Shown one piece after another: positions 27,487 through 57,052 of a DNA stretch of 64,000 bases; position 1 is the stretch's first letter, and the number at the start of each line of letters is the position of its first letter. The DNA comes from Ianthella basta (lineage: Eukaryota; Porifera; Demospongiae; Verongiida; Ianthellidae): contig OZ025874.1 in the NCBI GenBank assembly GCA_964019415.1, forward strand, positions 8,000,092-8,064,091, written 5' to 3'. A program made the translations under genes and the position numbers. The notes below the pieces were generated by a model. That model saw only the letters and a list, made by a program, of their open reading frames with translations, made no database searches and had not been told where the DNA came from.

Positions 27487-27954
27487 TCAGTAATAGGAAC
27501 AGTACCAGTAACAGCCGTATTTCTTGCAGCTGTATGAGTCGTAGTAACCACCACACTTGTTGTAGTAATAGCCGTAGTAGGATTTGCAATAACACTTGCT
27601 GCGGCGATAGCCATAGTGCCTGTATCCCGACCTGTAGTTAGACCGATAACCATAGTAACGATGACTACCATAACGAGATCTGTAACCATAACGTTTACGA
27701 GAATATCCCCCATAACGATAACTGCGAGATGCTGCAGCATTGGCTTCAGCATCAGCATCAGCATCAGCATCGGCATCGGCATCAGCATCGGCATCAGCAT
27801 CAGCATCAGCATCAGCATCAGCATCGGCATCAGCATCGGCATCGGCATCGGCATCAGCATCAGCATCTGGATCCGGTACTGGCTCAGCTTTAGCTGTCAG
27901 GAAAACAGCAGTGCCACACAGTAGGGCAAGCAAGAAGATATATTTGGACTTCAT
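27487..27954 (-). CDS. Secreted Tyr/Cys-rich peptide precursor 1 (type I)
   Basis: Single exon, 155 residues. The signal peptide begins [16 protein letters not shown] and ends in AKA. The acidic pro-region EPVPDP is followed by about 20 Asp-Ala pairs and EA-NA-AA, every second residue being Ala or Pro. The basic mature part has many GY, RY and SY pairs, then a C-terminal domain C-x-C-x10-C-x8-C-x4-C-x3-C-SYY. It is the most diverged type I member: its first pro dipeptide is EP rather than DP and its mature N-terminus begins SRSYRYGG instead of TYKHGYG. The TATA box lies 122 bases upstream. I recognise no named family; secretion and proteolytic maturation are inferred. Confidence 0.85.
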
Positions 27955-28075
27955 TTCAACCTTGCTCAGGTAAGAATCTTCACTGCACAGGGAGAATGAT
28001 CTTTAACCAGCGCTTGACTTGAGGTTCTTTGCAGTCCGTCGCTTTGGCAGCTTGATTTTCCACGCAAAGCTGGTT

Positions 28076-28256
28076 CTATTTATATCTTTTGCCCGCTAGC
28101 AGCAAACAGGCATGTTTTGTCTATGCAAGCCATACTGGACGTATCAATTAGGAGCTCATTATAGGAGTAAGGGTGTATGTTATATTTAAATTTACATGTC
28201 ATGAAAGCAAACATGTGATATAAGGGAGGGGTGGGTCATGTTATTAGTTTCCACCC
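28076..28256 (-). promoter_or_regulatory. Promoter of peptide gene 1
   Basis: A TATA box (minus strand GATATAAATAG, 28085-28076) lies 122 bases before the ATG. The G-rich upstream box shared by the array (plus strand GGGAGGGGTGGGT, then CCACCC) is at about 28223-28256, 270 bases before the ATG. Confidence 0.65.
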
Positions 28257-29163
28257 TATGCCAACAGACACAGCATGAGGAAGAGTGGGGGAGGATTAAG
28301 TCTCGTGATCATTCCGTTTTGAGGTTGAGACATACAGCAAATAATGTACCAAGAGGTGCTCGCTGCTATTGGTTCACACGGATAAGTCAGCATGACTTAC
28401 ACATCCAAAGTGCAGGATGTTCAATCTTTACATGTACATCTCTCTCTATATATATACAGTGTCGTTGTACCGTGAACACCCTACTACAGTAACACCTCCA
28501 TAGTGTACTTTAATATTAAAATAAGTGACATGTGTACTCAGCACATAAACAGCATTCAATATATACACACACATGGGTACACATATTACTTGCATTGATG
28601 CAACACCACTTCATTTAACACACAGCAACAGATCATGACTTCACTACATTCATATTCAGAAACTACTTCTATTCTCACAGCCGTCGCTGAGTGCAATGTA
28701 ATGGCCATTGCATACCCATACATACACACATACATGTAAGCCACTACCCAAACTGATGCTTCAACACCCCTACAGCTACCTTCATTGGTTGTGACTCTTA
28801 AGTGAGATTTGGTTACTACATAGCAGTATTCCATAGCAGAAGATACAACAGTGGTATCCATGCACATTCAAGCATGCGCAGAATCATGCATACTAACTAA
28901 ACCATGCAGCACACATGTGCCATTCAAAGAGTCAGCTTCAATAACTCCACAAACAGGAGCACAAAGATTAGCGGTGATACCTATGTGCCGATTCAGACAC
29001 TAATTCAACTACACATTAACTGTCCAGCTACTGTATGCATAGCATCATTAAAAGTGTTTGTGAGTGGGTCTATATGGTGGTAAAGTAAGTGTCTGTGAGA
29101 CTATGACTATGACGCTGACATGATGAAAGATTCAAAGTCCACTCCTGCAGTCCAACTAGCTGT
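28257..29163 (-). other. Spacer between peptide genes 1 and 2
   Basis: No gene is seen. The part from about 28880 to 29060 is a diverged relative of the 3' flank found after the other peptide genes (shared words such as CCATTCAA and CAACTACACATTAA). Confidence 0.45.
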
Positions 29164-29853
29164 TTAGTAATAGTAGCAGTACCAGTTGCAGCCATAGCTC
29201 TTGCACTTCCCCGAATCACTATAGGTACTGCAACGTCTGTAATAGCTCGAGTAGTAATACCTTGAGTAGGGTTTGCACACACACTTGCGGATCTTGCGGA
29301 TGCACGAGCATCTATTGTAGTCCAAACGGTAGCCATAAGAGCATTTCCTGGAGCATACGCACTTTCTGGAGTAGCTGTTCCAGTAGTAATGAGAGGGGCA
29401 CCTGGCTTTGCATGTGCAGCTGGCGTGGTGCAAGTAGTAGCCATAAGAGCATTTCCTGGAGCATACGCACTTTCTGGAGTAGCTGTTCCAGTAGTAGTAA
29501 GCGGGGCACCTGGCTTTGCATGTGCAGCTGGCGTGGTGCAAGTAGTAGCCATAAGAGCATTTCCTGGAGCATACGCACTTTCTGGAGTAGCTGTTCCAGT
29601 AGTAGTAAGCAGGGCACTTGCGATAATAGTACGAACTCTTCTGGTAAGTTGGTGCAGCATCAGCATCAGCATCGGCATCAGCATCGGCATCGGCATCGGC
29701 ATCGGCATCAGCATCAGCATCAGCATCAGCATCGGCATCAGCATCAGCATCGGCATCAGCATCAGCATCAGGTTCTGGTTCAGGGTCCGCTTTAGCACTG
29801 AAGATGGCAGTGCCACACAGTAGGGCAAGCAAGAAGATAACCTTCATCTTCAT
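29164..29853 (-). CDS. Secreted Cys-module peptide precursor 2 (type II, three modules)
   Basis: Single exon, 229 residues. The signal peptide [18 protein letters not shown] ends in AKA, followed by DP-EP-EP, about 20 Asp-Ala pairs and AP. Then come three 36-residue modules C-x12-C-x-C-x3-C-x10-C-x-C. The first two are near-identical as DNA over 108 bases (about 29400-29616), so one arose by recent internal duplication. The C-terminal domain C-x-C-x14-C-x8-C-x4-C-x3-C-YYY is shared with type I. The module's CVC-x3-C pattern resembles Balbiani-ring-3/VEGF-C-type cysteine repeats, a similarity of spacing only. TATA box 128 bases upstream. Confidence 0.85.
29400..29640 (-). repeat. 108-base tandem repeat inside peptide gene 2
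   Basis: Two successive 108-base units encode modules starting [16 protein letters not shown] and are almost identical in DNA; the third module (about 29292-29400) is more diverged. Confidence 0.8.
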
Positions 29854-29980
29854 TTTAGCCTTCCTAAGGTATCAATCTTCACTGCGTAGAGAGAATGCCC
29901 TTCAACCAGTGCTTGGCTTGAAGGACGTTGCTCTTTGGTTTGCTGCTTTTGTAGCTTAGGTTTCCAGGCAAAGCTGGGTC

Positions 29981-30155
29981 TATTTATATTGTACCTTAAT
30001 TCATTAGTGGTAGACAGATCTGCTTCATCTGCTAATCGCAGCTAACTTCCCAAATAGGAAAATAAATGAAAGCAATGTCTACATGACTGCACAAACAAGT
30101 GATGATATATATGTGTTGTAAGGGAGGGTTCAGTCATGTGTTCAGTCCCCACCCC
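29981..30155 (-). promoter_or_regulatory. Promoter of peptide gene 2
   Basis: A TATA box (minus strand AATATAAATA, 29990-29981) lies 128 bases before the ATG. The G-rich box with CCCCACCCC (30121-30155) lies about 268 bases before the ATG. Confidence 0.65.
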
Positions 30156-30670
30156 ATGTCTAAGACACAGCATGTGGAGGAGCGGGGGAGTGCTATAGTC
30201 TTGTGACAACATACCATACTGATTGGTTGTTAGCTGCATATGATCATAGCCCTGGCAGGGTAGAAATGCGTGCCCAATGAAGGATATGTACATACTTAAC
30301 ATATGATTATAATTACAATTATATGCGAACGTCATAGTAAGATGGCCGCCACCTAGCGTAAGTGATTTTCAAGTGATATGTTACTAGTCTGTAACTGATT
30401 AATAGTCATTATTACCCGTCAATATAATGTACTCCTTTTAGGCTATACGTGGCTCAGAGGATGGGTTAACCCCTGAAATCAATGGGTGCTTAACTAACAG
30501 TGCAAGTGCTTACCAGAGGATATGCGCTTATAAACAGGTGTGCTGATCAGTACAGCATCCCATTGTTACATTCACTACATCAGCGTATACAGCAAATTAC
30601 ACACTGGCACTACAGTACACAAGCAAATTTGCATACACACATATCAGGAAGATTTGTTCTTCACATGATG
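30156..30670. other. Spacer with a fragment of the 12033-12334 MITE family
   Basis: Positions about 30300-30395 (ATGCGAACGTCATAGTAAGATG and on) match the inside of the MITE in intron 5 of DUF3419 copy A. Its terminal repeats are missing. No gene is seen. Confidence 0.5.
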
Positions 30671-31411: not shown

Positions 31412-31897
31412 TCAGTAGTAAGAGCAGTACCAGTTGCAGCCATACTTCTTGCACGACCAAGAGTCATAGTAGCCACCACACTTGTTGCTGTAACCGTAGC
31501 TGTAGGACTTGCAGTAACACCTTTGCCTGCGATAGCCATAGCGCTTGTATCCATAACCATGGCTACCATACCGATTTCTGTATCCATAATGACTTTTGCG
31601 ATAAGAGCCATAAGATGGACTATAACGCCGATAATGTGACCCATGGCTAACACGCCGATAGGACCCATATCCATGCTTATAAGTAGGTGCAGCATCAGCA
31701 TCTGCATCGGCATCAGGATCTGCATCGGCATCAGGATCTGCGTCAGCATCGGCATCAGCATCAGCATCAGGATCTGCGTCAGCATCGGCATCTGCATCAG
31801 CATCCGGCTCTGGTACCGGGTCTGCTTTAGCAGACATGAAGACAGCTGTACCCAATAGTAGGGCAAGCAAGAAGATGTACTTGGTCTTCATTTTCAC
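31412..31897 (-). CDS. Secreted Tyr/Cys-rich peptide precursor 3 (type I)
   Basis: Single exon, 161 residues. Signal peptide [18 protein letters not shown] to AKA. Pro-region DP-VP-EP, then Asp-Ala pairs interrupted by three Asp-Pro pairs, ending AP before TYKHGYG. The mature part is about 95 residues, rich in Gly, Tyr, Ser, His and Arg. The C-terminal domain is C-x-C-x10-C-x8-C-x4-C-x3-C, as in gene 1. It differs from genes 5 and 7-9 in the spacing after CYC (10 rather than 13 residues). Its signal and promoter are otherwise close to theirs, so it is the oldest branch of that subgroup here. Confidence 0.85.
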
Positions 31898-32020
31898 CTT
31901 GCACAGTTAAGAGTCTTCACAGTATAGAGTGGACAATCTTCAACCTGGGCTTAGTGAGGGGAATTTCACTCTTTAGGATCTGGTGCTTCGGCAGCTTGAT
32001 TTTCATGGCAATGCTCACTC

Positions 32021-32188: not shown

Positions 32189-32280
32189 AATGAAGACACA
32201 ACTGAGGAGTTATGAGGACAGGTCAGCGTGTGCATACACCTAACACTCAGGTAGGTTTCATCTCTTCACATGATATTTAC

Positions 32281-32823: not shown

Positions 32824-32828
32824 TTTAC

Positions 32829-33936: not shown

Positions 33937-34437
33937 CTAATAATAGTAACATGACCAGTTGCATCCGTAACTCTTGCAGCTCCAGGAGTTGTAGTAGCTA
34001 CCACACTTGCTGTAACGAGAACTGCCGTAGTAATTAGAGTAGGCCTTGCACACACACCTGCGGCGCTTGGGGACGCACTTGCAGCCACTGTGATCCAAGC
34101 GGTAGCCATAGGAGCACTTCCTGGAGCATACACACTTCTTGTAGTAGTTGTTCCAAGAGTAGGGTGAGTAGCACCTGGGTTTGCACGTGCAGCTATGGTA
34201 GTCCAACTTGTAGCCGTAGTAGCATTTCCTGGAGCACACGCATTTCCTGTAGTAGCTGTTCCAGCTGTAGTAAGAGGGGCACCTTTGCCGATAATGAGAA
34301 GTGTGGTAATAAGGATAGGTTGGATCAGCATCAGCATCAGCATCAGCATCCGCATCAGCATCCACATCAGGCTCTGGTTCAGGATCCGCTTTAGCAACAA
34401 AGACGGCAGTACCACAGAATAGGGCAAGCAAGAAGAT
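33937..34437 (-). pseudogene. Peptide gene 4 (type II, two modules) lacking start and promoter
   Basis: The coding part matches genes 6 and 10: the later half of the signal peptide (FLLALFCGTAVFVAKA), DP-EP-EP, Asp-Ala pairs, two six-cysteine modules and the terminal domain. At about 34437 homology breaks off inside the signal peptide. The next bases match sequence that lies about 590 bases further upstream in the gene 6 unit (near 40344). The usual MKMK start, leader, TATA box and G-rich box are therefore deleted. The frame stays open by chance to an ATG at 34614. The pro-region also has one Asp-Val pair, breaking the X-Ala/X-Pro rule kept by all other members. Likely a dead or re-promoted copy. 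Confidence 0.75.
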
Positions 34438-36487
34438 TAATAATTTCTTCCAGGAAATATGCCAATTGTACATCGTGTGCACATGTGAGAGTAATAAGTA
34501 GTCACAACTATTATTATTCAAAATAAATGCAAAAGCACCTCTATTTGCACACCCTGTAGATATAGTCATGCAAATGTGCACAGCTGTCAACAGAGCCCAG
34601 TGAAATGCTGCCACTACCTACAGCTGCTACATACATACATACATACAAACATACATACATTTCATTCAAATCAGATGGTTCAGCAATATCTACATAGGCC
34701 ATTCACAGCTGCCTTCATCACTGGCAGCCATAGGCTGTCATAGTGATATTCGGCTAGCAGGTGGCAGCAATCCGCAGAAGAACATATGTTGCCATACCTT
34801 AAGAGTAGGATATTTCACCAGTTCAATGTGATACTCATAAAGCTAGTGGTACCTAGTGACTGCTAAAAGCTAATATCCTCTCCTTGTGTCAGCTAGCTTC
34901 TACGTAGAGCTTCCACAACTCAATAGTATTATTCAATTGTGCCTGAGGTACTTCATGATTGGTTCCTGACTAACCGATGACACATCAACTTTATGTACGT
35001 ACTACGATTAAGGGGGTGAATCTTAATCGAAATCTAACAGCAGTTCATAGAACACTAACAGACACAAAAGAACATAAAAAAGGTAAACAGATACACACTG
35101 TACAGCAGTCTGAACGAATACATACAATCCCTTGTTATTAGCACCAAATGGGAAAACACCCAGTTGCTGGAGTGAGGCAACCTATATAGTGTACATCAAA
35201 GACACACCTATCCCACATGTGGTGGTCAGTCTAGGTCAGTACTTGGACTTCAGTGCCAGCACAACTGTGGGTGGATGCAGTGTCACTATACAGAATACAT
35301 GCAAGGAGAGGGAGTGCCTGCTTGCTGTCATCAGCAATGACAGAGTATGCAAGTAGAAGAAGAGGTTGCTGTTTGTAGCTCTCAGGATGACCTTAAACTA
35401 ATGAGCTCTTATGGAATGGTCACATGACTGAGAAGTAAAACACATAATACACTTAGTAAGCATGACATAACTTCTATTTACTCCTAGACATTTGTATGCA
35501 AACAATAAGTGCTGCACTGTGTTATTGTTGCAATTGACATTTACATTACTATTATTGTCATGTTAAATGGTAAAATGTTATCTCTATATATAATTTGGTA
35601 GAGCTCAAATCCTATGTTCACAAACTCCTCATGCAGTTTGCGCGCGATTGACACGAAACTCGGGATTATTACAGAGCGCCGCATGGTGATGGTTATAAGG
35701 GGGTAGACGGAAGATGATTCGCTGCGCCTACGAAGAACGCCGCACGTTTTCCCTTTGTTATGGAAAAAGACGCCATGTTTTTGTTCGTTTATGGTCTGCG
35801 TATACAGGATTCTGGTTACTAAACGTTTCAAAACGCGGCACCATGCCAAAGGGAGATCGCTCGCGCTCTGCCATGCAACAGCGCTACAGCTAACACTGTC
35901 TGTGGCACCATACTGATGTAAATCAGATGCAATATGAGACTAAAATGCGGCAACATGGTAAACCTCTTCCTTCTGTGAAGCAACAGAGCTGCAGCCAACA
36001 CAATCTATGGCACCATTCTGATATACATCAGCTACAATATGAGTCTACAATGCAGCAACATCATAGACCTCTTCCTTCTGTGAGCATGTTGCTGCTTTTG
36101 CATATCCAATATCAGTGCATGCAAGATTCCACTTATTCTGGGTGATTCTCTGTCCACATCATGCTACACACAGCATCGCCTGCAACACGCATGCATAGCT
36201 ATGATTGCAGCCTACCAGCTGGCATACCCACACAATCATAAGCCACACTGTCGTGGAGCAGCTATCGTACAGCAGCCATCGTGGAGGCGCCGGAGCAGGG
36301 AAGCCTGCCGAAGGCGGGCTTTCCTGCTAGTTCAGTATACAACTGCCTAAACATGGAGTCATTTGCAGCTGTTTCTTATACAAATTGTGTAAACTGTGTA
36401 CTTTGATACCAGAAACAGCTGCAAGTGACCCAAATGTTTGGACAAGAATTTCACCTAGTACTACAGTAGTGTAGTTCATATGATGGC
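34438..36487. repeat. Array spacer upstream of type II genes, copy 1
   Basis: Contains the segment homologous to 40344-42268, 44580-45886, 48180-50104 and 54000-55250. Within it, 35147-35356 is a recurrent module of about 200 bases with an open frame (KDTPIPHVVVSLGQYLDF). Part of this spacer, 35585-36330, is not shared with the other units and may be an insertion. No gene is supported. Confidence 0.5.
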
Positions 36488-37227: not shown

Positions 37228-37722
37228 TCAGTAGTAAGAGCAGTACCAGTAGCAGCCATACTTCTTGCACTTCCAAGGGTCATAGTAGCCACCACACTTG
37301 TCCTTATTGTCCTTATAGTACTTGGAGTAGGACTTGCAGTAACACTTTTGCTTGCGATAGCCATAGCCATAGCCATAGCGCTTGTATCCATAACCATGGC
37401 TACCATACCGATTTCTGTATCCATAATGACTTTTGCGATAAGAGCCATAAGATGGACTATAACCCCGATAATGTGACCCATGGCTACCATGCCGATAGGA
37501 CCCATATCCATGCTTATAAGTAGGTGCAGCATCAGCATCTGCATCGGCATCAGGATCTGCATCGGCATCAGGATCTGCGTCAGCATCGGCATCTGCATCT
37601 GCATCTGCATCTGCATCTGCATCTGCATCCGGCTCTGGTACCGGGTCTGCTTTAGCAGACATGAAGACAGCTGTACCCAATAGTAGGGCAAGCAAGAAGA
37701 TGTACTTGGTCTTCATTTTCAC
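37228..37722 (-). CDS. Secreted Tyr/Cys-rich peptide precursor 5 (type I)
   Basis: Single exon, 164 residues; the protein is identical to that of gene 7. Signal peptide to AKA, then DP-VP-EP, Asp-Ala pairs with two Asp-Pro pairs, ending AP before TYKHGYG. The mature Gly/Tyr/His/Arg-rich part includes a short YGYGYGYR run not present in gene 3. The C-terminal domain is C-x-C-x13-C-x8-C-x4-C-x3-C-SYY, with KDNKDK in the first loop. Upstream (higher coordinates) is the intact type II gene 6, so this unit is complete. Confidence 0.85.
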   Translation of the reverse strand: MKMKTKYIFLLALLLGTAVFMSAKADPVPEPDADADADADADADADADADPDADADPDADADADAAPTYKHGYGSYRHGSHGSHYRGYSPSYGSYRKSHYGYRNRYGSHGYGYKRYGYGYGYRKQKCYCKSYSKYYKDNKDKCGGYYDPWKCKKYGCYWYCSYY

Positions 37723-39215: not shown

Positions 39216-39767
39216 CTAATAATAGTAACATGACCAGTTGCATCCGTACTTCTTGCAGCTCCAGGAGTTGTAGTAGCTACCACACTTGCTGTAACGAGAA
39301 CTGCCGTAGTAATTAGAGTAGGCCTTGCACACACACCTGCGGCGCTTGGGGACGCACTTGCAGCCATTGTGGTCCAAGCGGTAGCCATAGGAGCACTTCC
39401 TGGAGCATACACACTTCTTGTAGTAGTTGTTCCAAGAGTAGGGTGAGTAGCACCTGGGTTTGCACGTGCAGCTATGGTAGTCCAACTTGTAGCCGTAGTA
39501 GCATTTCCTGGAGCACACACATTTCCTGTAGTAGCTGTTCCAGCTGTAGTAAGAGGGGCACCTTCGCCGATAATGAGAAGTGTGGTAATAAGTATATGTT
39601 GGATCAGCATCAGCATCCGCATCGGCATCAGCATCCGCATCAGCATCGGCATCGGCATCAGCATCGGCCTCAGCATCGGCATCAGGCTCTGGTTCAGGAT
39701 CCGCTTTAGCAACAAAGACGGCAGTGCCACAGAATAGGGCAAGCAAGAAGATAACCTTCATCTTCAT
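39216..39767 (-). CDS. Secreted Cys-module peptide precursor 6 (type II, two modules)
   Basis: Single exon, 183 residues. Signal peptide [18 protein letters not shown] to AKA. Pro-region DP-EP-EP, then Asp-Ala pairs with one Glu-Ala, ending DP before TYTYYH. Two modules C-x12-C-x-C-x3-C-x10-C-x-C are followed by a basic PKRRR linker and the terminal domain C-x-C-x14-C-x8-C-x4-C-x3-C-YYY. It has fewer Asp-Ala pairs than gene 10, which is otherwise very similar, so the hexamer tract coding for the pro-region changes length quickly. Confidence 0.85.
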   Translation of the reverse strand: MKMKVIFLLALFCGTAVFVAKADPEPEPDADAEADADADADADADADADADADADPTYTYYHTSHYRRRCPSYYSWNSYYRKCVCSRKCYYGYKLDYHSCTCKPRCYSPYSWNNYYKKCVCSRKCSYGYRLDHNGCKCVPKRRRCVCKAYSNYYGSSRYSKCGSYYNSWSCKKYGCNWSCYYY

Positions 39768-40058: not shown

Positions 40059-42268
40059 TTAGCACGATATTTCATGCGCAATGACAGGTGAGGGATATAG
40101 GTCTTGTGATTATTCCACTGGCAGGTTGAAATGAATTGGAACACACACTAGTTAATAGTGAAACACGAAGAGGTACCTTAGTCCCAAGAAGTAAGTACAT
40201 TGCTTGCCATTGGCTCTCAACAGCAAATCAACATTACCACATACCGTAAGACTTTCATGCATCAAATGGAATATAGTAAGTGTGCTTGGTACAGTTTCAG
40301 GGTTAGGGTCTCACAGCAGCTACATACATTGTAGGAGACACGATAATAATTTCTTCCAGGAAATATGCCAATTGTACATCGTGTGCACATGTGAGAGTAA
40401 TAAGTAGTCACAACTATTATTATTCAAAATAAATGCAAAAGCATCTCTATTTGCACACCCTGTAGATATAGTCATGCAAATGTGCACAGCTGTCAACAGA
40501 GCCCAGTGAAATGCTGCCACTACCTACAGCTGCTACATACATACATACATACAAACATACATACATTTCATTCATTGGTTCAGCAATATCTATACAGGCC
40601 ATTCACAGCTGCCTTCATCACTGGCAGCCATAGGCTGTCATAGTGATATTCGGCTAGCAGGTGGTAGCAATCCGCAGAAGAAAATGTGTTACCATACCTT
40701 AAGAGTAGGATATTTCACCAGTTCACTGTGATACACATAAAGCTAGTGGTACCTAGTGACTGCTAAGAGCTAATATCCTCTCCTTGTGTCAGCTAGCTTC
40801 TACATAGAGCTTCCACAACCAAATAGTATTATTTAATTGTGCCGGAGGTACTTCATGATTGGTTCCTGACTAACCGATGACACATCAACTTCATGCACGT
40901 ACTATGATTAAGGGGGTGAATCTTAATTTTAATCTAACAGCAGTTCATAGTCCACTAACAGATACAAAGAACATAAAAAAGGCGAACAGATACACACTGT
41001 ACAGCAGTCTGAACGAATACATACAATCCCTTGTTATTAGCACCACATTAAATGGGAAAACACCCAGTTGCTGGAGTGAGACAACCTACAAGTGTACATC
41101 AAAGACACACCTATCCCACATGTGGTCAGTCTAGGTAAGTACTTGGACTTCAGTGCCAGCACAACTGTGGCTGGGTGCAGTGTCACTATACAGAATACAT
41201 GCAAGGAGAGGGAGTGCCTGCTTGCTGCCATCAGCAATGCCAGAGTATGCAAGTAGAAGAAGAGGTTGCTGTTTGTAGCTCTCAGGATGACCATAAACTA
41301 ATGAGCTCCTATTGAATGGTCACATGACTGAGAAGTAAAACACATAATACACTTAGTAAGCGTGACATAACTTCTATTTACTCCTAGACATTTGTATGCA
41401 AACAATAAGTGCTGCACTGTGTACGTGTCTACGTATAGCTTCCACAACCCAATAGTATTATTTAATTGTGCCAGAGGTACTTCATGATTGCTTCCTGACT
41501 AACTGATGACACATCAACTTCATGTACGTACTACGATTAAGGGGGTGAATCTTAATCTAAACAGCAGTTCAAAGAACACTGACAGATGCAATGAACATAA
41601 AAAAGGTGAACAGATACACACTGTACAGCAGTCTGAACGAATACATACAATGCCTTGTTATTAGCACCGTACTAAATGGGAAAACACCCAGTTACTGGAG
41701 TGAGGCAACCTACAAAGTGTACATCAAAGACACACCTATCCCACATGTGGTGGTCAGTCTAGGTAAGTACTTAGACTTCAGAGCCAGCACAACTGTGGGT
41801 GGATGCAGTGTCACTATACAGAATATATATACATGCAAGGAGAGGGAGTGCCTGCTTGCTGTCATCAGCAATGACAGAGTATACAAGTAGAAGAAGAGGT
41901 TGCTGTTTGTAGCTCTCAGGATTCCTTTAAACTAATGAGCTCTTATTGAATGGTCACATGACTGAGAAGTAAAACACATAATACACTTAGTAAGCGTGAC
42001 ATAACTTCTATTTACTCCTAGACATTTGTATGCGAACAATAAGTGCTGCACTGTGTTATTGTTGCAATTGACATTTACATTAATATTATTGTCATGTTAA
42101 ATGGTAAAATGTTATTCACTATACAACTGCCTAAACATGGAGTCATTTGCAGCTGTTTCTTATACAGATTGTGTAAATTGTGTACTTTGATACCAGAAAC
42201 AGCTGCAAGTGACCCAAATGTTTGGACAAGAATTTCACCTAGTACCACAGTAGTGTAGTTCATATGAT
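40059..42268. repeat. Array spacer upstream of type II genes, copy 2 (with internal duplication)
   Basis: About 600 bases are present twice in tandem here (about 40800-41420 and 41421-41950), each holding the module of about 200 bases with an open frame. The same doubling occurs at 48640-49800. No gene is supported. Confidence 0.55.
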
Positions 42269-43008: not shown

Positions 43009-43503
43009 TCAGTAGTAAGAGCAGTACCAGTAGCAGCCATACTTCTTGCACTTCCAAGGGTCATAGTAGCCACCACACTTGTCCTTATTGTCCTTATAGT
43101 ACTTGGAGTAGGACTTGCAGTAACACTTTTGCTTGCGATAGCCATAGCCATAGCCATAGCGCTTGTATCCATAACCATGGCTACCATACCGATTTCTGTA
43201 TCCATAATGACTTTTGCGATAAGAGCCATAAGATGGACTATAACCCCGATAATGTGACCCATGGCTACCATGCCGATAGGACCCATATCCATGCTTATAA
43301 GTAGGTGCAGCATCAGCATCTGCATCGGCATCAGGATCTGCATCGGCATCAGGATCTGCGTCAGCATCGGCATCTGCATCTGCATCTGCATCTGCATCTG
43401 CATCTGCATCCGGCTCTGGTACCGGGTCTGCTTTAGCAGACATGAAGACAGCTGTACCCAATAGTAGGGCAAGCAAGAAGATGTACTTGGTCTTCATTTT
43501 CAC
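43009..43503 (-). CDS. Secreted Tyr/Cys-rich peptide precursor 7 (type I)
   Basis: Single exon, 164 residues; the protein is identical to gene 5, 5781 bases away, including the number of Asp-Ala pairs. Signal peptide, dipeptide pro-region, Gly/Tyr-rich part and terminal C-x-C-x13-C-x8-C-x4-C-x3-C domain as in gene 5. The type II gene expected upstream is deleted (junction near 44163). Identity points to a very recent duplication or gene conversion; assembly duplication should be excluded. Confidence 0.85.
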   Translation of the reverse strand: MKMKTKYIFLLALLLGTAVFMSAKADPVPEPDADADADADADADADADADPDADADPDADADADAAPTYKHGYGSYRHGSHGSHYRGYSPSYGSYRKSHYGYRNRYGSHGYGYKRYGYGYGYRKQKCYCKSYSKYYKDNKDKCGGYYDPWKCKKYGCYWYCSYY

Positions 43504-43859: not shown

Positions 43860-45886
43860 TGTTTCATCTCTTTACATCACATTTACTGTTGCAGTACTAT
43901 TGTACTGTTAATACCTGACAATACAAACAATATCCCACCGTAGTGTATGTTAATATCCAAAGTGATGATCAGCATACTGACAGTATTCTATATGTGTGCA
44001 TGCGCTGGATACTTCTTGTGTGCTGATGTATGTAATATACTAAACTATGACTATATAATACATAGTGATACATAGTAACAGAAAACAGTCACATTTATTG
44101 TACACATTCTCTCTTTGACTGTTTGACTGGTGCAACACCATGATGTCAACTAACAGCTGTGACAGAAACTCTGTGGCTGCTCAGATGGAACAATGGCCAA
44201 TGTTTACACAGTAGGTGCCAATGTTTGTACACACAAAATGAACTGCATATCTCTTGTATAGGAGGGGGGGGGGGGGGGGGGGGGTAAGACCAATAGTCTT
44301 CACCCCATAGCATGAAATGTCAAGCGCAATGACAGGTGAGGGATATAGGTCTTGTGACTATTCCACCGGCAGGTTGAAATGAAATGGAACACACACTAGT
44401 TAATAGTGAAACACGAAGAGGTACCTTAGTCCCAAGAAGTAAGTACATTCCTTGCCATTGGCTCTCAACAGCAAATCAACATTACCACATACCGTAAGAC
44501 TTTCATGCATCAAATGGAATATAGTAAGTGTGCTTGGTACAGTTTCAGGGTTAGGGTCTCACAGCAGCTACATACATTGTAGGAGACACGATAATAATTT
44601 CTTCCAGGAAATATGTCAATTGTACATCATGTGCACGTGTGAGAGTAATAAGTAGTCACAACTATTATTATTCAAAATAAAGGCAAAAGCACCTCTATTT
44701 GCACACCCTGTAGATATAGTCATGCAAATGTGCACAGCTGTCAACAGAGCCCAGTGAAATGCTGCCACTACCTACAATTGCTACATGCACACATACAAAC
44801 ATACATACATTTCATTCATTGGTTCAGCAATATCTATATAGGCCATTCACAGCTGCCTTCATCACTGGCAGCCATAGGCTGTCACAGTGATATTCGGCTA
44901 GCAGGTGGCAGCAATTCACAGAAGAATATATGTTGCCATACCTTAAGAGTAGGATATTTCACCAGTTCAATGTGATACTCATAAAGCTAGTGGTACCTAG
45001 TGACTGCTAAGAGCTAATATTTTCTCCTTGTGTCAGCTAGCTTCTACATAGAGCTTCCACAACTCAATAGTATTATTTAATTGTGCCGGAGGTACTTCAT
45101 GATTGGTTCCTGACTAACCGATGACACATCAACTTTATGTACGTACTACGATTAAGGGTGTGAATCTTAATCTTAATCTAACAGCAGTTCATAGTCCACT
45201 AACAGATACAAAGAACATAATAAAGGTGAACAATACACACTGTACAGCAGTCTGAACGAATACATACAATGCCTTGTTATTAGCACCGTATTAAATGGGA
45301 AAACACCCAGTTGCTGGAGTGAGACAACCTACTAAGTGTACATCAAAGACACACCTATCCCACATGTGGTGGTCAGTCTAGGTCAGTACTTGGACTTCAG
45401 TGCCAGCACAACCATGTGGGTGGATGCAGTGTCACTATACAGAATACATGCAAGTAGAGGGAGTGCCTGCTTGCTGTCATCAGCAATGCCAGAGTATGCA
45501 AGTAGAAGAAGAGGTTGCTGTTTGTAACTCTCAGGATGACCTTAAACTAATGAGCTCCTTTTGAATGGTCACATGACTGAGAAGTAAAACACATAATACA
45601 CTTAGTAAGCGTGACATAACTTCTATTTACTCCTAGACATTTGTATGCAAACAATAAGTGCTGCACTGTGTTATTGTTGCAATTGACATTTACATTAATA
45701 TTATTGTCATGTTAAATGGTAAAATGTTATTCACTATACAACTGCCTAAACATGGAGTCATTTGCAGCTGTTTCTTATACAAATTGTGTAAACTGTGTAC
45801 TTTGATACCAGAAACAGCTGCAAGTGACCCAAAGTTTGGACAAGAATTTTACCTAGTACCACAGTAGTGTAGTTCATATGATGGCG
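43860..45886. repeat. Array spacer with type II gene deleted, copy 1
   Basis: At 44163 the sequence passes from the spacer after a type I gene directly into the region upstream of a type II promoter (AGCTGTGACAGAAACTC). Compared with 38378-39918, about 1.54 kb carrying the whole type II gene is missing. A run of 21 G lies at 44264-44284. Confidence 0.7.
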
Positions 45887-46623: not shown

Positions 46624-47106
46624 TCAGTAGTAAGAGCAGTACCAGTAGCAGCCATATTTCTTGCACTTCCAAGGGTCATAGTAGCCACCACACTTGTCCT
46701 TATTGTCCTTATAGTACTTGGAGTAGGACTTGCAGTAACACTTTTGCTTGCGATAGCCATAGCCATAGCCATAGCGCTTGTATCCATAACCATGGCTACC
46801 ATACCGATTTCTGTATCCATAATGACTTTTGCGATAAGAGCCATAAGATGGACCATAACCCCGATAATGTGACCCATGGCTAACACGCCGATAGGACCCA
46901 TATCCATGCTTATAAGTAGGTGCAGCATCAGCATCTGCATCGGCATCAGGATCTGCATCGGCATCAGGATCTGCGTCAGCATCGGCATCTGCATCTGCAT
47001 CTGCATCTGCATCCGGCTCTGGTACCGGGTCTGCTTTAGCAGACATGAAGACAGCTGTACCCAATAGTAGGGCAAGCAAGAAGATGTACTTGGTCTTCAT
47101 TTTCAC
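46624..47106 (-). CDS. Secreted Tyr/Cys-rich peptide precursor 8 (type I)
   Basis: Single exon, 160 residues; the protein is identical to gene 9. Same plan as genes 5 and 7, with two fewer Asp-Ala pairs. It has two substituted sites in the Gly/Tyr-rich part: a YRRVSHG stretch as in gene 3, and YGPS instead of YSPS. It is thus a mosaic of gene 3-like and gene 5-like sequence, suggesting gene conversion. Terminal domain C-x-C-x13-C-x8-C-x4-C-x3-C. Its upstream unit lacks the type II gene. Confidence 0.85.
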   Translation of the reverse strand: MKMKTKYIFLLALLLGTAVFMSAKADPVPEPDADADADADADADADPDADADPDADADADAAPTYKHGYGSYRRVSHGSHYRGYGPSYGSYRKSHYGYRNRYGSHGYGYKRYGYGYGYRKQKCYCKSYSKYYKDNKDKCGGYYDPWKCKKYGCYWYCSYY

Positions 47107-47397: not shown

Positions 47398-47459
47398 AAT
47401 GAAGACACAGCTGAGGAGTTATGAGGACAGGTCAGCATCTGCATACACCTGACACTCAA

Positions 47460-50104
47460 GAATGTTTCATCTCTTTACATCACATTTACTGTTGCAGTAC
47501 TATTGTACTGTTAATACCTGACAATACAAACAATATCCCATCGTAGTGTATGTTAATATCCAAAGTGATGATCAGCATACTGACAGTATTCTATATGTGT
47601 GCATGCGCTGGATACTTCTTGTGTGCTGATGTATGTAATATACTAAACTATGACTATATAATACATAGTGATACATAGTAACAGAAAACAGTCACATTTA
47701 TTGTACACATTCTCTCTTTGACTGTTTGACTGGTGCAACACCATGATGTCAACTAACAGCTGTGACAGAAACTCTGTGGCTGCTCAGATGGAACAATGGC
47801 CAATGTTTACACAGTAGGTGCCAATGTTTGTACACACAAAATGAACTGCATATCTCTTGTATAGGAGGGGGGGGGGGGGGGGGTAAGACCAATAGTCTTC
47901 ACCCCATAGCATGAAATGTCAAGCGCAATGACAGGTGAGGGATATAGGTCTTGTGACTATTCCACCGGCAGGTTGAAATGAAATGGAACACACACTAGTT
48001 AATAGTGAAACACGAAGAGGTACCTTAGTCCCAAGAAGTAAGTACATTCCTTGCCATTGGCTCTCAACAGCAAATCAACATTACCACATACCGTAAGACT
48101 TTCATGCATCAAATGGAATATAGTAAGTGTGCTTGGTACAGTTTCAGGGTTAGGGTCTCACAGCAGCTACATACATTGTAGGAGACACGATAATAATTTC
48201 TTCCAGGAAATATGTCAATTGTACATCATGTGCACGTGTGAGAGTAATAAGTAGTCACAACTATTATTATTCAAAATAAAGGCAAAAGCACCTCTATTTG
48301 CACACCCTGTAGATATAGTCATGCAAATGTGCACAGCTGTCAACAGAGCCCAGTGAAATGCTGCCACTACCTACAATTGCTACATGCACACATACAAACA
48401 TACATACATTTCATTCATTGGTTCAGCAATATCTATATAGGCCATTCACAGCTGCCTTCATCACTGGCAGCCATAGGCTGTCACAGTGATATTCGGCTAG
48501 CAGGTGGCAGCAATTCACAGAAGAATATATGTTGCCATACCTTAAGAGTAGGATATTTCACCAGTTCAATGTGATACTCATAAAGCTAGTGGTACCTAGT
48601 GACTGCTAAGAGCTAATATTTTCTCCTTGTGTCAGCTAGCTTCTACATAGAGCTTCCACAACTCAATAGTATTATTTAATTGTGCCGGAGGTACTTCATG
48701 ATTGGTTCCTGACTAACCGATGACACATCAACTTTATGTACGTACTACGATTAAGGGTGTGAATCTTAATCTAACAGCAGTTCATAGTCCACTAACAGAT
48801 ACAAAGAACATAAAAAAGGTGAACAATACACACTGTACAGCAGTCTGAACGAATACATACAATGCCTTGTTATTAGCACCACATTAAATGGGAAAACACC
48901 CAGTTGCTGGAGTGAGACAACGTACTAAGTGTACATCAAAGACACACCTATCCCACATGTGGTGGTCAGTCTAGGTAAGTACTTGGACTTCAGTGCCAGC
49001 ACAACTGTGGGTGGATGCAGTGTCACTATACAGAATACATGCAAGGAGAGGGAGTGCCTGCTTGCTGCCATCAGCAATGACACAGTATGCAAGTAGAAAA
49101 AGAGGTTGCTGTTTGTAACTCTCAGGATGACCTTAAACTAATGAGCTCCTATTGAATGGTCACATGACTGAGAAGTAAAACACATAATACACTTAGTAAG
49201 CGTGACATAACTTCTATTTACTCCTAGACATTTGTATGCAAACAATAAGTGTTGCACTGTGTACGTGTCTACCTGTATCTTCCACAACCCAATAGTATTA
49301 TTTAATTGTGTCTGAGGTACTTCATGATTGCTTCCTGACTAACCGATGACACATCAACTTCATGTACGTACTACGATTAAGGGGGTGAATCTTAATCTAA
49401 ACAGCAGTTCAAAGAACACTGACAGATGCAAAGAACATAAAAAGGTGAACAATACACACTGTACAGCAGTCTGAACGAATACATACAATGCCTTGTTATT
49501 AGCACCGTATTAAATGGGAAAACACCCAGTTGCTGGAGTGAGACAACCTACTAAGTGTACATCAAAGACACACCTATCCCACATGTGGTGGTCAGTCTAG
49601 GTCAGTACTTGGACTTCAGTGCCAGCACAACCATGTGGGTGGATGCAGTGTCACTATACAGAATACATGCAAGTAGAGGGAGTGCCTGCTTGCTGTCATC
49701 AGCAATGCCAGAGTATGCAAGTAGAAGAAGAGGTTGCTGTTTGTAACTCTCAGGATGACCTTAAACTAATGAGCTCCTTTTGAATGGTCACATGACTGAG
49801 AAGTAAAACACATAATACACTTAGTAAGCGTGACATAACTTCTATTTACTCCTAGACATTTGTATGCAAACAATAAGTGCTGCACTGTGTTATTGTTGCA
49901 ATTGACATTTACATTAATATTATTGTCATGTTAAATGGTAAAATGTTATTCACTATACAACTGCCTAAACATGGAGTCATTTGCAGCTGTTTCTTATACA
50001 AATTGTGTAAACTGTGTACTTTGATACCAGAAACAGCTGCAAGTGACCCAAAGTTTGGACAAGAATTTTACCTAGTACCACAGTAGTGTAGTTCATATGA
50101 TGGC
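47460..50104. repeat. Array spacer with type II gene deleted, copy 2
   Basis: It has the same deletion junction as the previous spacer (near 47765), so the deletion came before the duplication. A run of 17 G is at 47867-47883. About 600 bases are doubled (48640-49260 and 49270-49800), as at 40800-41950. No gene is supported. Confidence 0.65.
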
Positions 50105-50842: not shown

Positions 50843-51325
50843 TCAGTAGTAAGAGCAGTACCAGTAGCAGCCATATTTCTTGCACTTCCAAGGGTCATAG
50901 TAGCCACCACACTTGTCCTTATTGTCCTTATAGTACTTGGAGTAGGACTTGCAGTAACACTTTTGCTTGCGATAGCCATAGCCATAGCCATAGCGCTTGT
51001 ATCCATAACCATGGCTACCATACCGATTTCTGTATCCATAATGACTTTTGCGATAAGAGCCATAAGATGGACCATAACCCCGATAATGTGACCCATGGCT
51101 AACACGCCGATAGGACCCATATCCATGCTTATAAGTAGGTGCAGCATCAGCATCTGCATCGGCATCAGGATCTGCATCGGCATCAGGATCTGCGTCAGCA
51201 TCGGCATCTGCATCTGCATCTGCATCTGCATCCGGCTCTGGTACCGGGTCTGCTTTAGCAGACATGAAGACAGCTGTACCCAATAGTAGGGCAAGCAAGA
51301 AGATGTACTTGGTCTTCATTTTCAC
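50843..51325 (-). CDS. Secreted Tyr/Cys-rich peptide precursor 9 (type I)
   Basis: Single exon, 160 residues; the protein is identical to gene 8, 4219 bases away, and the DNA appears identical over the coding region on reading. Signal peptide to AKA, DP-VP-EP and Asp-Ala/Asp-Pro pairs ending AP, Gly/Tyr-rich mature part, terminal six-cysteine domain with a 13-residue first loop. Its unit retains an intact type II gene (gene 10) upstream, unlike genes 7 and 8. Confidence 0.85.
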   Translation of the reverse strand: MKMKTKYIFLLALLLGTAVFMSAKADPVPEPDADADADADADADADPDADADPDADADADAAPTYKHGYGSYRRVSHGSHYRGYGPSYGSYRKSHYGYRNRYGSHGYGYKRYGYGYGYRKQKCYCKSYSKYYKDNKDKCGGYYDPWKCKKYGCYWYCSYY

Positions 51326-52818: not shown

Positions 52819-53418
52819 CTAATAATAGTAACATGACCAGTTGCATCCGTAACTCTTGCAGCTCCAGGAGTTGTAGTAGCTACCACACTTGCTGTAACGA
52901 GATCTGCCGTAGTAATTAGAGTAGGCCTTGCACACACACCTGCGGCGCTTGGGGACGCACTTGCAGCCACTGTGATCCAAGCGGTAGCCATAGGAGCACT
53001 TCCTGGAGCAGACACACTTCTTGTAGTAGTTGTTCCAAGAGTAGGGTGAGTAGCACCTGGGTTTGCATGTGCAGCTATGGTAGTCCAACTTGTAGCCGTA
53101 GTAGCATTTCCTGGAGCACACGCATTTCCTGTAGTAACTGTTCCAGCTGTAGTAAGAGGGGCACTTTCGCCGATAATGAGAAGTGTGGTAATAAGTATAT
53201 GTTGGATCAGCATCAGCATCAGCATCAGCATCAGCATCGGCATCGGCATCGGCATCGGCATCGGCATCGGCATCGGCATCGGCATCGGCATCGGCATCAG
53301 CGTCAGCATCGGCATCGGCATCAGCATCTGCATCAGGCTCTGGTTCAGGATCCGCTTTAGCAACAAAGACGGCAGTGCCACAGAATAGGGCAAGCAAGAA
53401 GATAACCTTCATCTTCAT
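52819..53418 (-). CDS. Secreted Cys-module peptide precursor 10 (type II, two modules)
   Basis: Single exon, 199 residues. Signal peptide [18 protein letters not shown] to AKA, DP-EP-EP, more than 20 Asp-Ala pairs, DP before TYTYYH. Two 36-residue modules and the terminal domain are near-identical to genes 4 and 6. The extra length against gene 6 is entirely in the Asp-Ala tract, coded by a hexamer microsatellite (GCATCA/GCATCG on the plus strand). TATA box 123 bases upstream. Confidence 0.85.
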   Translation of the reverse strand: MKMKVIFLLALFCGTAVFVAKADPEPEPDADADADADADADADADADADADADADADADADADADADADADPTYTYYHTSHYRRKCPSYYSWNSYYRKCVCSRKCYYGYKLDYHSCTCKPRCYSPYSWNNYYKKCVCSRKCSYGYRLDHSGCKCVPKRRRCVCKAYSNYYGRSRYSKCGSYYNSWSCKSYGCNWSCYYY

Positions 53419-53540
53419 TTTTGCCTTCCTTAGTTATGAATCTTCACTGCGTAGAGAAAATCTTCAACCAGTGCTTGGCTTTAAGACGTTGCTCCTTAGA
53501 TCTGTTGCTCTGGCAGTTGCTTTCTGGGTCAAGCTGGGTT

Positions 53541-53710
53541 CCTTTATACCTTTCATCAACTAGCAACAGACAGAAACTCTGTGGCTGCTCAGATGGAACA
53601 ATGGCCAATGTTTACACAGTAGGTGCCAATGTTTGTACACACAAAATGAACTGCATATCTCTTGTATAGGAGGGAGGGGGGGGGGGGGTAAGACCTATAG
53701 TCTTCACCCC
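53541..53710 (-). promoter_or_regulatory. Promoter of peptide gene 10
   Basis: The TATA box (53550-53541) is 123 bases before the ATG. The G-rich box with a 13-G run (53676-53688) and CTTCACCCC lies about 252-290 bases before it. Confidence 0.65.
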
Positions 53711-56080
53711 ATAGCACGAAATGTCAAGCGCAATGACAAGTGAGGGATATAGGTCTTGTGATTATTCCACTGGCAGGTTGAAATGAATTGGAACACACAC
53801 TAGTTAATAGTGAAACACGAAGAGGTACCTTAGTCCCAAGAAGTACATTGCTTGCCATTGGCTCTCAACAGCAAATCAACATTAGCACATACCGTCAGAC
53901 TTTCATGCATCAAATGGAACATAGTAAGTGTGCTTAGTACAGTTTCAGGGTTAGGGTCTCACGGCAGCTACATACATTGTAGGAGACACATTAATAATTT
54001 CTTCCAGGAAATATGTCAATTGTACATCATGTGCACGTGTGAGAGTAATAAGTAGTCACAACTATTATTATTCAAAATAAATGCAAAAGCACCTCTATTT
54101 GCACACCCTGTAGATATAGTCATGCAAATGTGCACAGCTGTCAACAGAGCCCAGTGAAATGCTGCCACTACCTACAATTGCTACATACACACATACAACT
54201 CATTCAAATCAGATGGTTCGGCAATATCTATATAGGCCATTCACAGCTGCCTTCATCACTGGCAGCCATAGGCTGTCATAGTGATATTTGGCTAGCAGGT
54301 GGCAGCACTCCGCAGAAGAACATAGGTTGCCATACCTTAAGAGTAGGATATTTCACCAGTTCAATGTGATACTCATAAAGCTAGTGGTACCTAATGACTG
54401 CTAAGAGTTAATATCCTCTCCTTGTGTCAGCTAGCTTCTACGTAGAGCTTCCACAACTCAATAGTATTATTAAATTGTGCCAGAGGTACTTCATGATTGC
54501 TTCCTGACTAACCGATGACACATCAACTTCATGTACGTACTACGATTAAGGGGGTGAATCTTAATCTAAACAGCAGTTCAAAGAACACTGACAGATACAA
54601 AGAACATAATAAAGGTGAACAGATACACACTGTACAGCAGTCTGAACGAATACATACAATGCCTTGTTATTAGCACCGTATTAAATGGAAAACACCCACT
54701 TGCTGGAGTGAGGCAACCTACATAGTGTACATCAAAGACACGCCTATCCCACATGTCGTCAGTCTAGGTCAGTACTTGGACTTCAGTGCCAGCACAACTG
54801 TGGGTGGATGCAGTGTCACTATACAGAATACATGCAAGGAGAGGGAGTGCCTGCTTGCTGTCATCAGCAATGACAGAGTATGCAAGTAGAAGAAGAGGTT
54901 GCCATTTGTAGCTCTCAGGATGACCTTAAACTAATGAGCTCCTATTGAATGGTCACATGACTGAGAAGTAAAACACATAATACACTTAGTAAGTGTGGCG
55001 TAACTTCTATTTACTCCTAGACATTTGTATGCGAACAATAAGTGCTGCACTGTGTTATTGTTGCAATTGACGTTTACATAATGTTAAATGTTAAAATGTT
55101 ATTCAGTATACAACTGCCCAAACATTGATTCATTTGCAGCTGTTTCTTATACAAATTGTGTAAATTGTGTACTTTGATACCAGAAACAGCTGCTGCAAGT
55201 GACCCAAATGTTTGGACAAGAATTTTACCTAGTACCACAGTAGTGTAGTTCATAGTGCATAGTGTTGGCAGTTCCTTATTCAAGATCTCAAACTCCAGAC
55301 TAAAGAGGTAACTAAGTAAAAGTTAAATGCCAACCAAGAGGTATCAGCAGGATTTAGAACTTTTGGGCTTGAAGTGACTGGGTGCAAAGTGCTCTAAATC
55401 TCCTCAGACACCAATTGGGCAGCATTTAAGTACTATACATAGATCCAACTAATTGGACAGCAAATTGACTTAGCTGCTCTTCCTAGTGGCATTTGCATCC
55501 TAAGTAGCAAGTTCTCAAAATGCATGTGTTTGGAACATTACAGTAGTACTAGTAAATCACAATACATAATATTATAATGGAAAGCATGCATTATACTATC
55601 TATCTCTATTTAGCACAACAACCAAACAGAATCCAATGCAATGTCACAAATTAAGTGACCCATACATACTTCCATATGGCTAACCAATTTGCGTAGAATA
55701 AATGCTTCAACAGCCTACCCCAATACCCTCATTGGTTGCAGTCACTAACTGCCAAAGTGCCTACATTATAATGGTAATTGTATTCTGAAGCAGAGGAGAC
55801 AACACCAATATCTACTCCAGATATCAACGGTGCACTGCATATCACCTGCTATCTGCTAGTACACACCATTCATTGAGGTAATTTCAATAATTCAGTAACA
55901 AAATACCATTACAGCTTCCTTACTGGTGATTCAGTCATGCACTGGATCAACTACACATATAGTGTGTAGCTATGCCAAGCCTGACTAAGAGAGTCTGTGT
56001 GTGAGCCTATAAGCTAGTAATACAAAACCATATGTGATGGGTGTTCCATAATCCACTCTTGCCAGCCAACTTGCAGCTGA
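53711..56080. repeat. Array spacer upstream of gene 10 and 3' flank of gene 11
   Basis: The left part (to about 55255) matches the other type II upstream spacers. From about 55255 the sequence becomes unique until 55790-56010, which again matches the type II 3' flank. No gene is supported. Confidence 0.55.
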
Positions 56081-57052
56081 CTAATAATAGTAACATGACC
56101 ATTTGCATCCGTACTTCTTGCAGCTCCAGGAGTTGTAGTAGCTACCACACTGGCTGTAACGAGAACTGCCATAGTGACTGGTGGGGGCCTTGCACACACA
56201 CTTGCGGCGCTTGGGGACACACTTGCAGCCATTGTGGTCCAAGCGGTAGCCATAGGAGCATTTCCTGGAACATACACACTTCTTGTAGTAGTTGTTCCAA
56301 GAGTAGGGTGAGTAGCACCTGGGTTTACACGTGCAGCTATCGTAGTCCAATTTGTAGTCGTGTGAGCATTTCTTGGAACATACACACTTCTTGTAGTAGT
56401 TGTCCCAGGAGTAGGGAGAGTAGCACCTGGGTTTGCACGTGCAGGTATCATACTCCAATTTGTAGTCATGTGAGCACTTCTTAGAACATTCGCACTTCTT
56501 GGAGTGTCTGTCGTAGTAGTGGGGTGCATAGCACCTGGGTTTGCACTTGCAGGTATCGTACTCCAATTTGTAGTCATATGAGCATTTCTTACGGCATTCA
56601 CACTTCTTGGAGTATCTGTCGTAGTAGTGGGGCGAGTAGCACCTGGGTTTGCATGTGCAGCTATCATAGTGAAGCTTGTAGTCGTATGAACACCTCCTGG
56701 AGCATACACACTTCCTGTAGTAGCTGTCCCAGCTGTAGTAAGATGGGCACTTTTGACGATAATGAGAAGTCCTGTGATATGTTGGATCAGCATCGGCATC
56801 TGCATCAGCGTCAGCATCGGCGTCTGCATCAGCGTCTGCATCAGCATCAGCATCTGCATCTGCATCTGGATCCGCATCCGCATCCGCATCGGCATCAGCA
56901 TCGGCATCGGCATCGGCATCGGCATCAGCATCGGCATCAGCATCAGCATCGGCATCGGCATCGGCATCAGGCTCTGGTTCAGGATCCGCTTTAGCAACAA
57001 AGACGGCAGTGCCACAGAGCAGGGCAAGCAAGAAGATAATCTTCACCTTCAT
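56081..57052 (-). CDS. Secreted Cys-module peptide precursor 11 (type II, five modules)
   Basis: Single exon, 323 residues, the longest member. Signal peptide [18 protein letters not shown] to AKA. The pro-region DP-EP-EP is followed by more than 25 Asp-Ala pairs with one Asp-Pro, ending DP before TYHRT. Five modules follow the C-x12-C-x-C-x3-C-x10-C-x-C rule. The first and last two have YSW-type first loops; modules 2 and 3 have HYYDR loops with CEC in place of CVC and are richer in acidic residues. The terminal domain is C-x-C-x14-C-x8-C-x4-C-x3-C-YYY. It sits at the 5' end of the array and is the most diverged type II gene; its TATA box is 127 bases upstream. Confidence 0.85.
   Translation of the reverse strand: MKVKIIFLLALLCGTAVFVAKADPEPEPDADADADADADADADADADADADADADADADADPDADADADADADADADADADADADADADPTYHRTSHYRQKCPSYYSWDSYYRKCVCSRRCSYDYKLHYDSCTCKPRCYSPHYYDRYSKKCECRKKCSYDYKLEYDTCKCKPRCYAPHYYDRHSKKCECSKKCSHDYKLEYDTCTCKPRCYSPYSWDNYYKKCVCSKKCSHDYKLDYDSCTCKPRCYSPYSWNNYYKKCVCSRKCSYGYRLDHNGCKCVPKRRKCVCKAPTSHYGSSRYSQCGSYYNSWSCKKYGCKWSCYYY

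Follow-up and report, generated by a model that had tools for sequence, protein, structure and literature searches.

Melittin and the yeast alpha-factor are freed from their precursors by dipeptidyl peptidase IV (DPP IV), which takes away the prosequence two residues at a time. The same enzyme releases such dipeptides sequentially from wasp peptide prosequences (PMC4773785, a wasp-venom review), and ant toxins carry repetitive, highly anionic propeptides (PMC10821600). Little is known about the sponge proteins that give hardness to skeleton, coat or attachment. We analysed 64,000 nucleotides from the sponge Ianthella basta (the window; positions 8000092-8064091 of contig OZ025874.1, here C7), in which eleven frames on the minus strand form an array at 27487-57052. 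All eleven encode an acidic Asp-Ala pro-region followed by a basic, Tyr/Cys-rich part. We tentatively favour the reading that these genes encode precursors which DPP IV trims to tannable proteins of a matrix or an adhesive; the trimming is suggested by the sequence, and from composition and genomic setting we infer the tanning and the matrix role.

Like the DPP IV-matured precursors (mastoparans and kinins of wasps, aculeatoxins of ants, melittin, alpha-factor), with which they were compared by architecture, the array proteins combine a signal peptide, a pro-region of X-Ala/X-Pro or anionic character and a separate mature part. They differ in that the mature part is a Cys/Tyr-rich protein of 80 to 233 residues and not a short peptide, and in the 17 to 34 dipeptides ahead of it; the mature peptide of the aculeatoxins is free of cysteine, whereas all 15 mature parts found here hold 6 to 36. 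The maturation grammar appears to have known precedents, and the setting to be new. If correct, the reading ties DPP IV-type trimming of a pro-region to a large tyrosinase repertoire and a lineage-specific family of Tyr-rich secreted proteins, a tie absent from the excerpts of the literature examined. No earlier description of such a family appeared in the titles and abstract beginnings of the matches listed for sponge peptide precursors, anionic propeptides, dipeptidyl peptidase and antistasin.

A dipeptide register between two fixed ends

The pro-regions of all 15 members, eleven in the window and four on contig C14, read as X-Ala or X-Pro dipeptides in one register, from the predicted signal site to a constant start of the mature part. 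The signal site was placed by inspection after AKA (after VRA in P0001 and P0002, two relatives from outside this genome), and the mature part starts with TY, replaced by SR only in the first gene, g01. Most genes of type II, which have six-cysteine modules, parse as DP EP EP DA ... DA DP before TY; most of type I, which are Gly/Tyr-rich, parse as DP VP EP DA ... DA AP before TY; and g01 parses as EP VP DP DA ... NA AA before SR. The run measures 17 to 34 dipeptides in the 14 intact genes and 11, the shortest, in the disrupted gene g04. P0001 can also be parsed, with one Val, and P0002 with none.

Over the 15 genes, the even positions held 256 Ala, 77 Pro and 1 Val, the last found in g04 only, and the odd positions 289 Asp, 23 Glu, 9 Ala, 8 Val, 3 Tyr, 1 Asn and 1 Gly. 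Every even position of the 14 intact genes (323 of 323) was Ala (250) or Pro (73). Past the first three dipeptides of these genes, the even positions comprised 250 Ala, encoded by four codons (GCT 93, GCC 84, GCA 64, GCG 9), and 31 Pro. Synonymous change was frequent there, and Pro was the sole replacement, with Thr, Ser, Val and Gly absent; the odd positions were Asp in 266 of 281 cases, the rest being 9 Ala (in the last pair), 3 Tyr, 2 Glu and 1 Asn. We set aside an origin of the tract from codon repetition only, since the residue remains Ala or Pro even though Ala is spelled with four different codons. Lys and Arg were found in none of the 15 pro-regions, and a dibasic pair at none of the 15 boundaries. 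We suggest that this register is the substrate grammar of DPP IV.

Members of the array and a second cluster

The members of the array are as follows.

27487-27954, minus strand: g01, type I; pro-region 27730-27885; mature part 27490-27729, starting SR; TATAAA at -130
29164-29853, minus strand: g02, type II with three six-Cys modules; pro-region 29650-29787; mature part 29167-29649; TATAAA at -135
31412-31891, minus strand: g03, type I; pro-region 31685-31822; mature part 31415-31684; TATAAA at -137
33937-34569, minus strand: g04, type II with two modules, 5'-disrupted; no shared TATAAA or start; pro-region of 11 dipeptides
37228-37716, minus strand: g05, type I; pro-region 37522-37647; mature part 37231-37521; TATAAA at -137
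39216-39767, minus strand: g06, type II with two modules; pro-region 39600-39701; mature part 39219-39599, modelled; TATAAA at -133
43009-43497, minus strand: g07, type I, protein identical to g05; pro-region 43303-43428; mature part 43012-43302
46624-47100, minus strand: g08, type I; pro-region 46918-47031; mature part 46627-46917
50843-51319, minus strand: g09, type I, protein identical to g08; pro-region 51137-51250; mature part 50846-51136
52819-53418, minus strand: g10, type II with two modules; pro-region 53203-53352; mature part 52822-53202; TATAAA at -130
56081-57052, minus strand: g11, type II with five modules; pro-region 56783-56986, the longest (34 dipeptides); mature part 56084-56782; TATAAA at -134

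An earlier reading of the window (the sequence-only reading) had described a tandem array of eleven genes with an acidic dipeptide pro-region, a basic Tyr-rich mature part and a terminal domain C-x-C-x(10-14)-C-x8-C-x4-C-x3-C. All eleven frames were recovered in place, each with the pro-region and the basic part, and the terminal cysteine spacing was 1-(10, 13 or 14)-8-4-3 in 11 of 11; in the C14 genes, 7 replaces 8 in two of four. The signal peptide that it took to be shared by all was recognised by inspection as a hydrophobic leader after a shared start in ten frames, the exception being the 5'-disrupted g04. Both of its architectures are present, and their alternation extends across the first seven genes only (along the plus coordinate: I, II, I, II, I, II, I, I, I, II, II). 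It had overlooked the dipeptide register, the disruption of g04, the second cluster and the tyrosinase-rich setting. The type II module reads C-x12-C-x-C-x3-C-x10-C-x-C-x3, in 2, 3 or 5 copies in the window and 4 or 5 on C14. TATAAA lies 130 to 137 bases ahead of the ATG in 10 of the 11 array genes (14 of 15 with those on C14). Each intact gene is short, has a TATA box and a single frame, and would encode a secreted precursor with a cleavable signal.

The array contains ten intact members. In g04 other sequence is joined inside the signal peptide, and the shared promoter box and start are missing. A query taken as its extra N-terminus matched intergenic DNA at four other places (40332-40475, 44580-44723, 48179-48322 and 53980-54123). 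On these grounds we judged g04 to be 5'-disrupted, its 5' end having seemingly been lost.

The genome (209,087,449 bases, 96 contigs) was searched with the signal and pro-region as query; counts from such queries are lower bounds. At E <=0.001, with 21 candidates scored, 15 matches were obtained, 11 in the window and 4 on C14, and no members beyond these two clusters. The second cluster, at C14:5052563-5071999, holds four genes on the plus strand in the order II, I, II, I. Positions 54254-58500 of the window are 92% identical to C14:5051075-5055350 over 4.3 kb. Six duplicated blocks longer than 2 kb lie inside the window at 96.5-99.1% identity, with shorter blocks down to 81%. The proteins of 37228 and 43009 are identical, as are those of 46624 and 50843.

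Old paralogues (g01 and g02, each against its own type) gave ratios of non-synonymous to synonymous substitution rates (dN/dS) of 0.12-0.22 at dS 1.2-2.2; g01 is a divergent old paralogue, at dS 1.2-2.2 from the other type I genes compared. This constraint, together with the 15 genome matches, places the array beyond chance. Comparison of g03 with later type I genes gave dN/dS of 1.4-2.2, on 17 to 19 non-synonymous changes. Between g03 (31412-31891) and g05 (37228-37716) the ratio exceeded 1, with 18 non-synonymous and 2 synonymous changes, which may come from diversifying selection or recombination.

Outside this genome, three relatives were found, all proteins in ENA on other contigs. A first search of 5.77 billion proteins returned four matches. 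Two of them, P0001 and P0002, on contigs of at most 144,941 and 351,766 bases, were real relatives; the other two, P0003 and P0004, were discarded. P0005 came from a profile search and is, in our reading, a prediction that crosses frames over a related gene. A third search, over the best 8000 candidates, gave 17 matches, namely P0001, P0002 and 15 others; the seven of these 15 that were read proved to be unrelated DA-repeat proteins. No relative was found on prokaryote genome contigs.

Charge and composition of the mature parts

The mature parts are 80 to 233 residues long, carry a net charge of +16 to +32, consist of Tyr to 16-34% and contain 6, 18, 24, 30 or 36 cysteines. The whole precursor is near neutral, with a net charge between -6 and +8 for every intact gene; that of g04 is +10. 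Over 12 distinct intact proteins, the charge balance gave a Pearson coefficient of 0.66, a Spearman coefficient of 0.48 (p 0.11) and a permutation p of 0.035.

The 15 mature parts together have 1931 residues, of which 441 are Tyr, 44 Trp and none Phe; other hydrophobic residues were scarce (Leu 23, Val 34, Ile 2, Met 0). The first 23 residues of the same frames held 32 Phe, and L021, a protein of the same genome with no DA region, has 5 Phe against 47 Tyr. In five pairwise comparisons, none of 41 mismatches at Tyr was to Phe, where about 7 were expected from a BLOSUM62-based share of 18%; the P of about 0.0003 for this deficit is to be read with the five comparisons being not independent.

Enzymes of the same genome

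Matches to the DPP IV model PF00930 fell at C6:5029607-5031268 (57.4 and 25.7 bits) and C11:2726999 (30.3 bits). The C6 region has exons over the cut-off and also, read singly and not joined, a Ser exon with SFGGY, then YTERYMGTPEDN, HGTGD, DNVHF and TDKAHSI; exons with the Ser, Asp and His motifs were all seen. Two more elements would fit the same gene, joined as we suppose: an EE motif that spans an intron and, some 4 kb upstream, a hydrophobic segment with basic flanks. By these motifs, which we take to be those of the family's active site, the C6 gene probably encodes a DPP IV-type enzyme. The C11 gene, which carries GWSYGGY, looks DPP8/9-like.

Tyrosinase matches over the cut-off numbered 43 in the genome, of which 35 cover at least 209 of 214 positions, 34 of them without a stop (for example C3:725954-726700, C5:1863170-1878943 and C18:6487508-6490917). 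In the four tyrosinases that were read from end to end, the N-terminus is hydrophobic and leader-like and there are EGF-like regions rich in Cys; two of the four also have a C-terminal membrane segment, all as judged by eye. In bivalves, tyrosinase expansions reach about 18 genes or more. The 34 near-complete, stop-free domains exceed the 18 named for amphioxus, which is among the large expansions (PMC3658974). One demosponge is reported to have two tyrosinases, and Sycon, a calcareous sponge, a cluster of them; none are reported for Amphimedon. It was suggested that in sponges the enzyme may act as a cross-linker of matrix proteins, by way of the quinone of 3,4-dihydroxyphenylalanine (DOPA) with Lys or His (PMC12665527). 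Heme-peroxidase domains covering at least 486 of 530 positions numbered 15.

Proposed maturation and alternatives

We propose that signal peptidase cuts after AKA, and that a DPP IV-type dipeptidyl peptidase then strips the acidic pro-region by X-Ala and X-Pro pairs. Trimming would halt as soon as a pair has a residue other than Ala or Pro in second place, as TY does, or SR in g01. Until release, the pro-region may keep the mature part, whose charge it nearly offsets, soluble and inactive. The freed basic protein, rich in Tyr, Lys, His and Cys, would most likely be built into an extracellular matrix, a coat or an adhesive, and could harden by oxidation of Tyr (through tyrosinase and DOPA-quinone, or through peroxidase) and by disulfides. 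Type II would contribute hairpin-like cysteine modules and type I a Gly/Tyr/Arg-rich stretch. A more specific form of this scheme, which we consider rather unlikely, makes the charge-matched (Asp-Ala)n tract a removable counter-ion block against condensation in the cell, stripped outside by DPP IV, after which the expanded tyrosinases would cross-link the condensed polymer. An early-branching animal would then be making a material with propeptide chemistry of the venom style.

A tannable matrix or adhesive substrate is favoured because tyrosinases and heme peroxidases are at hand in the genome and because the mature parts combine Tyr without Phe with Lys, His and Cys. Quinone-tanned Tyr-rich proteins, such as those of the mussel foot and the trematode eggshell, are likewise rich in Tyr, Lys, His, Cys and Gly, secreted and multicopy. 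The likeness is one of composition, DOPA is only presumed in the sponge proteins, and these differ by the acidic dipeptide pro-region. Spongin as the hardened material was set aside, as collagens are reported to be its main components (PMC11906918).

Several points weigh against our proposal. Neither the tyrosinases and peroxidases nor the C6 and C11 genes are linked to the array, and just 7 of the 15 genes have an AATAAA or ATTAAA no further than 300 bases from the stop. The odd positions of the pro-region are nearly uniform too, which makes the contrast between even and odd modest. Since the parse stops by rule at the first even residue other than Ala, Pro or Val, and since slippage by six-base units preserves the register unaided, the informative evidence is the two fixed ends and the unbroken run between them. 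In 8 of the 15 genes, RR, KR or R-x-x-R is found among the 12 residues past the boundary, and a cut there is a possible alternative; such sites vary in position (residues 2-5 in g01, 10-11 in g03) and are absent from the other seven. The charge balance is weak, with no trend within type I, and the absence of Phe may come in part from a general avoidance of hydrophobic residues.

A role in defence is possible, and we hold it with less confidence than the matrix role. What the same DPP-type trimming would then free is an antimicrobial or deterrent peptide, cationic and rich in disulfides, and the acidic pro-region would prevent self-harm, as it does in peptide families of venoms and of Hydra. 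The mature charge of +16 to +32, the recent duplications and the repetitive, highly anionic propeptides of ant toxins (PMC10821600) agree with this. Hydra antimicrobial peptides (arminins, periculins) resemble the array in their bipartite charge, cysteine pattern and clustered, lineage-specific paralogues (PMC10945409), a likeness in general features; a sponge antimicrobial peptide of another type, ASABF from Suberites, has been published (PMC3210614). However, mature parts of 80-233 residues with 16-34% Tyr and multiplied modules are not what such a role would lead one to expect, and aliphatic residues seem too few for membrane insertion. The old paralogues are conserved and not diversified, although g03 against later type I genes gave dN/dS of 1.4-2.2. 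The family had earlier been compared with effectors (defence, adhesive or venom-like peptides) and its role left open; secretion, clustering and copy change were a fair basis for this, and the tyrosinase-rich setting now favours the adhesive or matrix option over the venom-like one.

It is quite improbable, in our view, that the acidic block is never removed and that the protein condenses with itself as a permanent block polyampholyte, in a coacervate glue or a mineral-binding matrix. The whole-precursor charge of -6 to +8 in the intact genes would suit such a protein, as would odd positions that are nearly all Asp, which is what a plain acidic block requires, and in glassin Asp-rich and His-rich regions are tied to silica deposition (PMC10772126). 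It leaves unexplained why the even positions of intact genes depart from Ala only for Pro, and why the junction is constant and in register.

Family affinities of the modules

The proteins had been assigned to no named family, and no family model exceeded its cut-off for the array genes in the libraries searched; NCBIfam gave no match for the three proteins searched, and PF03128 (CXCXC; cut-off 15) was not listed at E <=1 for any of the 7 of 11 window genes scanned. Affinities were found nonetheless, to CXCXC modules and, weakly, to antistasin. L021 (C7:7247131-7248402) has alternating C-x10-C-x-C-x-C modules and two terminal domains C-x12-C-x8/9-C-x8-C, and scored 58.5 bits with PF03128. As a genome query it gave 30 matches: itself, 7 in the DA genes and 22 others (14 on C1 at 13.44-13.54 Mb, 3 on C22, 3 on C6 and 2 on C7). 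Loci or clusters with CXCXC modules were noted at C1:13441444-13540107, C22:2221530-2229746, C6:1671131-1674578 and C7:7240783-7248402. Five further loci of this type were sampled (L057-L061). L058, L060 and L061 pass PF03128 with 64, 34 and 50.6 bits; L057, without a Pfam listing, ends in two similar terminal domains.

The matches of the type II modules to L021, which has a similar terminal cysteine domain, indicate that they are related to CXCXC-repeat modules. They differ in reading C-x-C-x3-C against C-x-C-x-C, and a DA pro-region is lacking in L021 and L061, the latter being the only one of the five sampled loci with a visible leader end. In our inference, the DA family arose as a branch of the CXCXC-module proteins, with gain of its acidic leader and, in type I, loss of the modules.

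That the family consists of protease inhibitors, with antistasin-like type II modules and type I a derived, non-inhibitory form, is very improbable: antistasin (PF02822, cut-off 21.2) passes in P0002 (21.9 bits) and approaches the cut-off in P0001 (17.1), but among the 7 of 11 window genes scanned it matches only 39216 (16.7), 56081 (15.6) and 52819 (14.7), weakly and along the C-YGY-LD-GC-C stretch, with 29164, the fourth type II gene scanned, among the four unlisted, while the cysteine pattern and Tyr content differ, the spacing tracks the CXCXC relatives, type I has no module and the Tyr/Gly stretches are left unexplained.

Sub-cut-off Pfam matches to TrAA12, CDC45, SpoIIIAH and TspB, and those in the PDB to circumsporozoite protein and others, were rejected as low-complexity matches to the repeat part.

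Other features

C1-protease matches numbered 45 in the genome. Nine active-site stretches were read, eight with the catalytic Cys and one, L055, with Ser. L055 comes from a tandem trio of cathepsin-like frames without visible introns (C6:3129864-3135966); Ser replaces Cys as in silicateins, in the one copy read, and the silicatein motif, as we presume it to be, is lacking. Silicatein identity as proof of a siliceous sponge was set aside, with L055 alone reading Ser among the nine stretches. No Hox-like homeodomain was found in the genome, the best identity being 47%.

The C7 flank carries NHL and B-box domains; a VWA domain lies beside the C14 cluster, where Ig and laminin-EGF fall just below the cut-off. 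The following were seen in the window outside the array.

4364-8758, minus strand: Gypsy-like LTR retrotransposon, seen as a long open frame whose gag part matches SCAN
12495-13740 and 20935-22204: a gene fragment present twice, similar to DUF3419 below the cut-off; a similar second frame follows each copy
14770-14814, plus strand: type I hammerhead ribozyme, 42.5 bits

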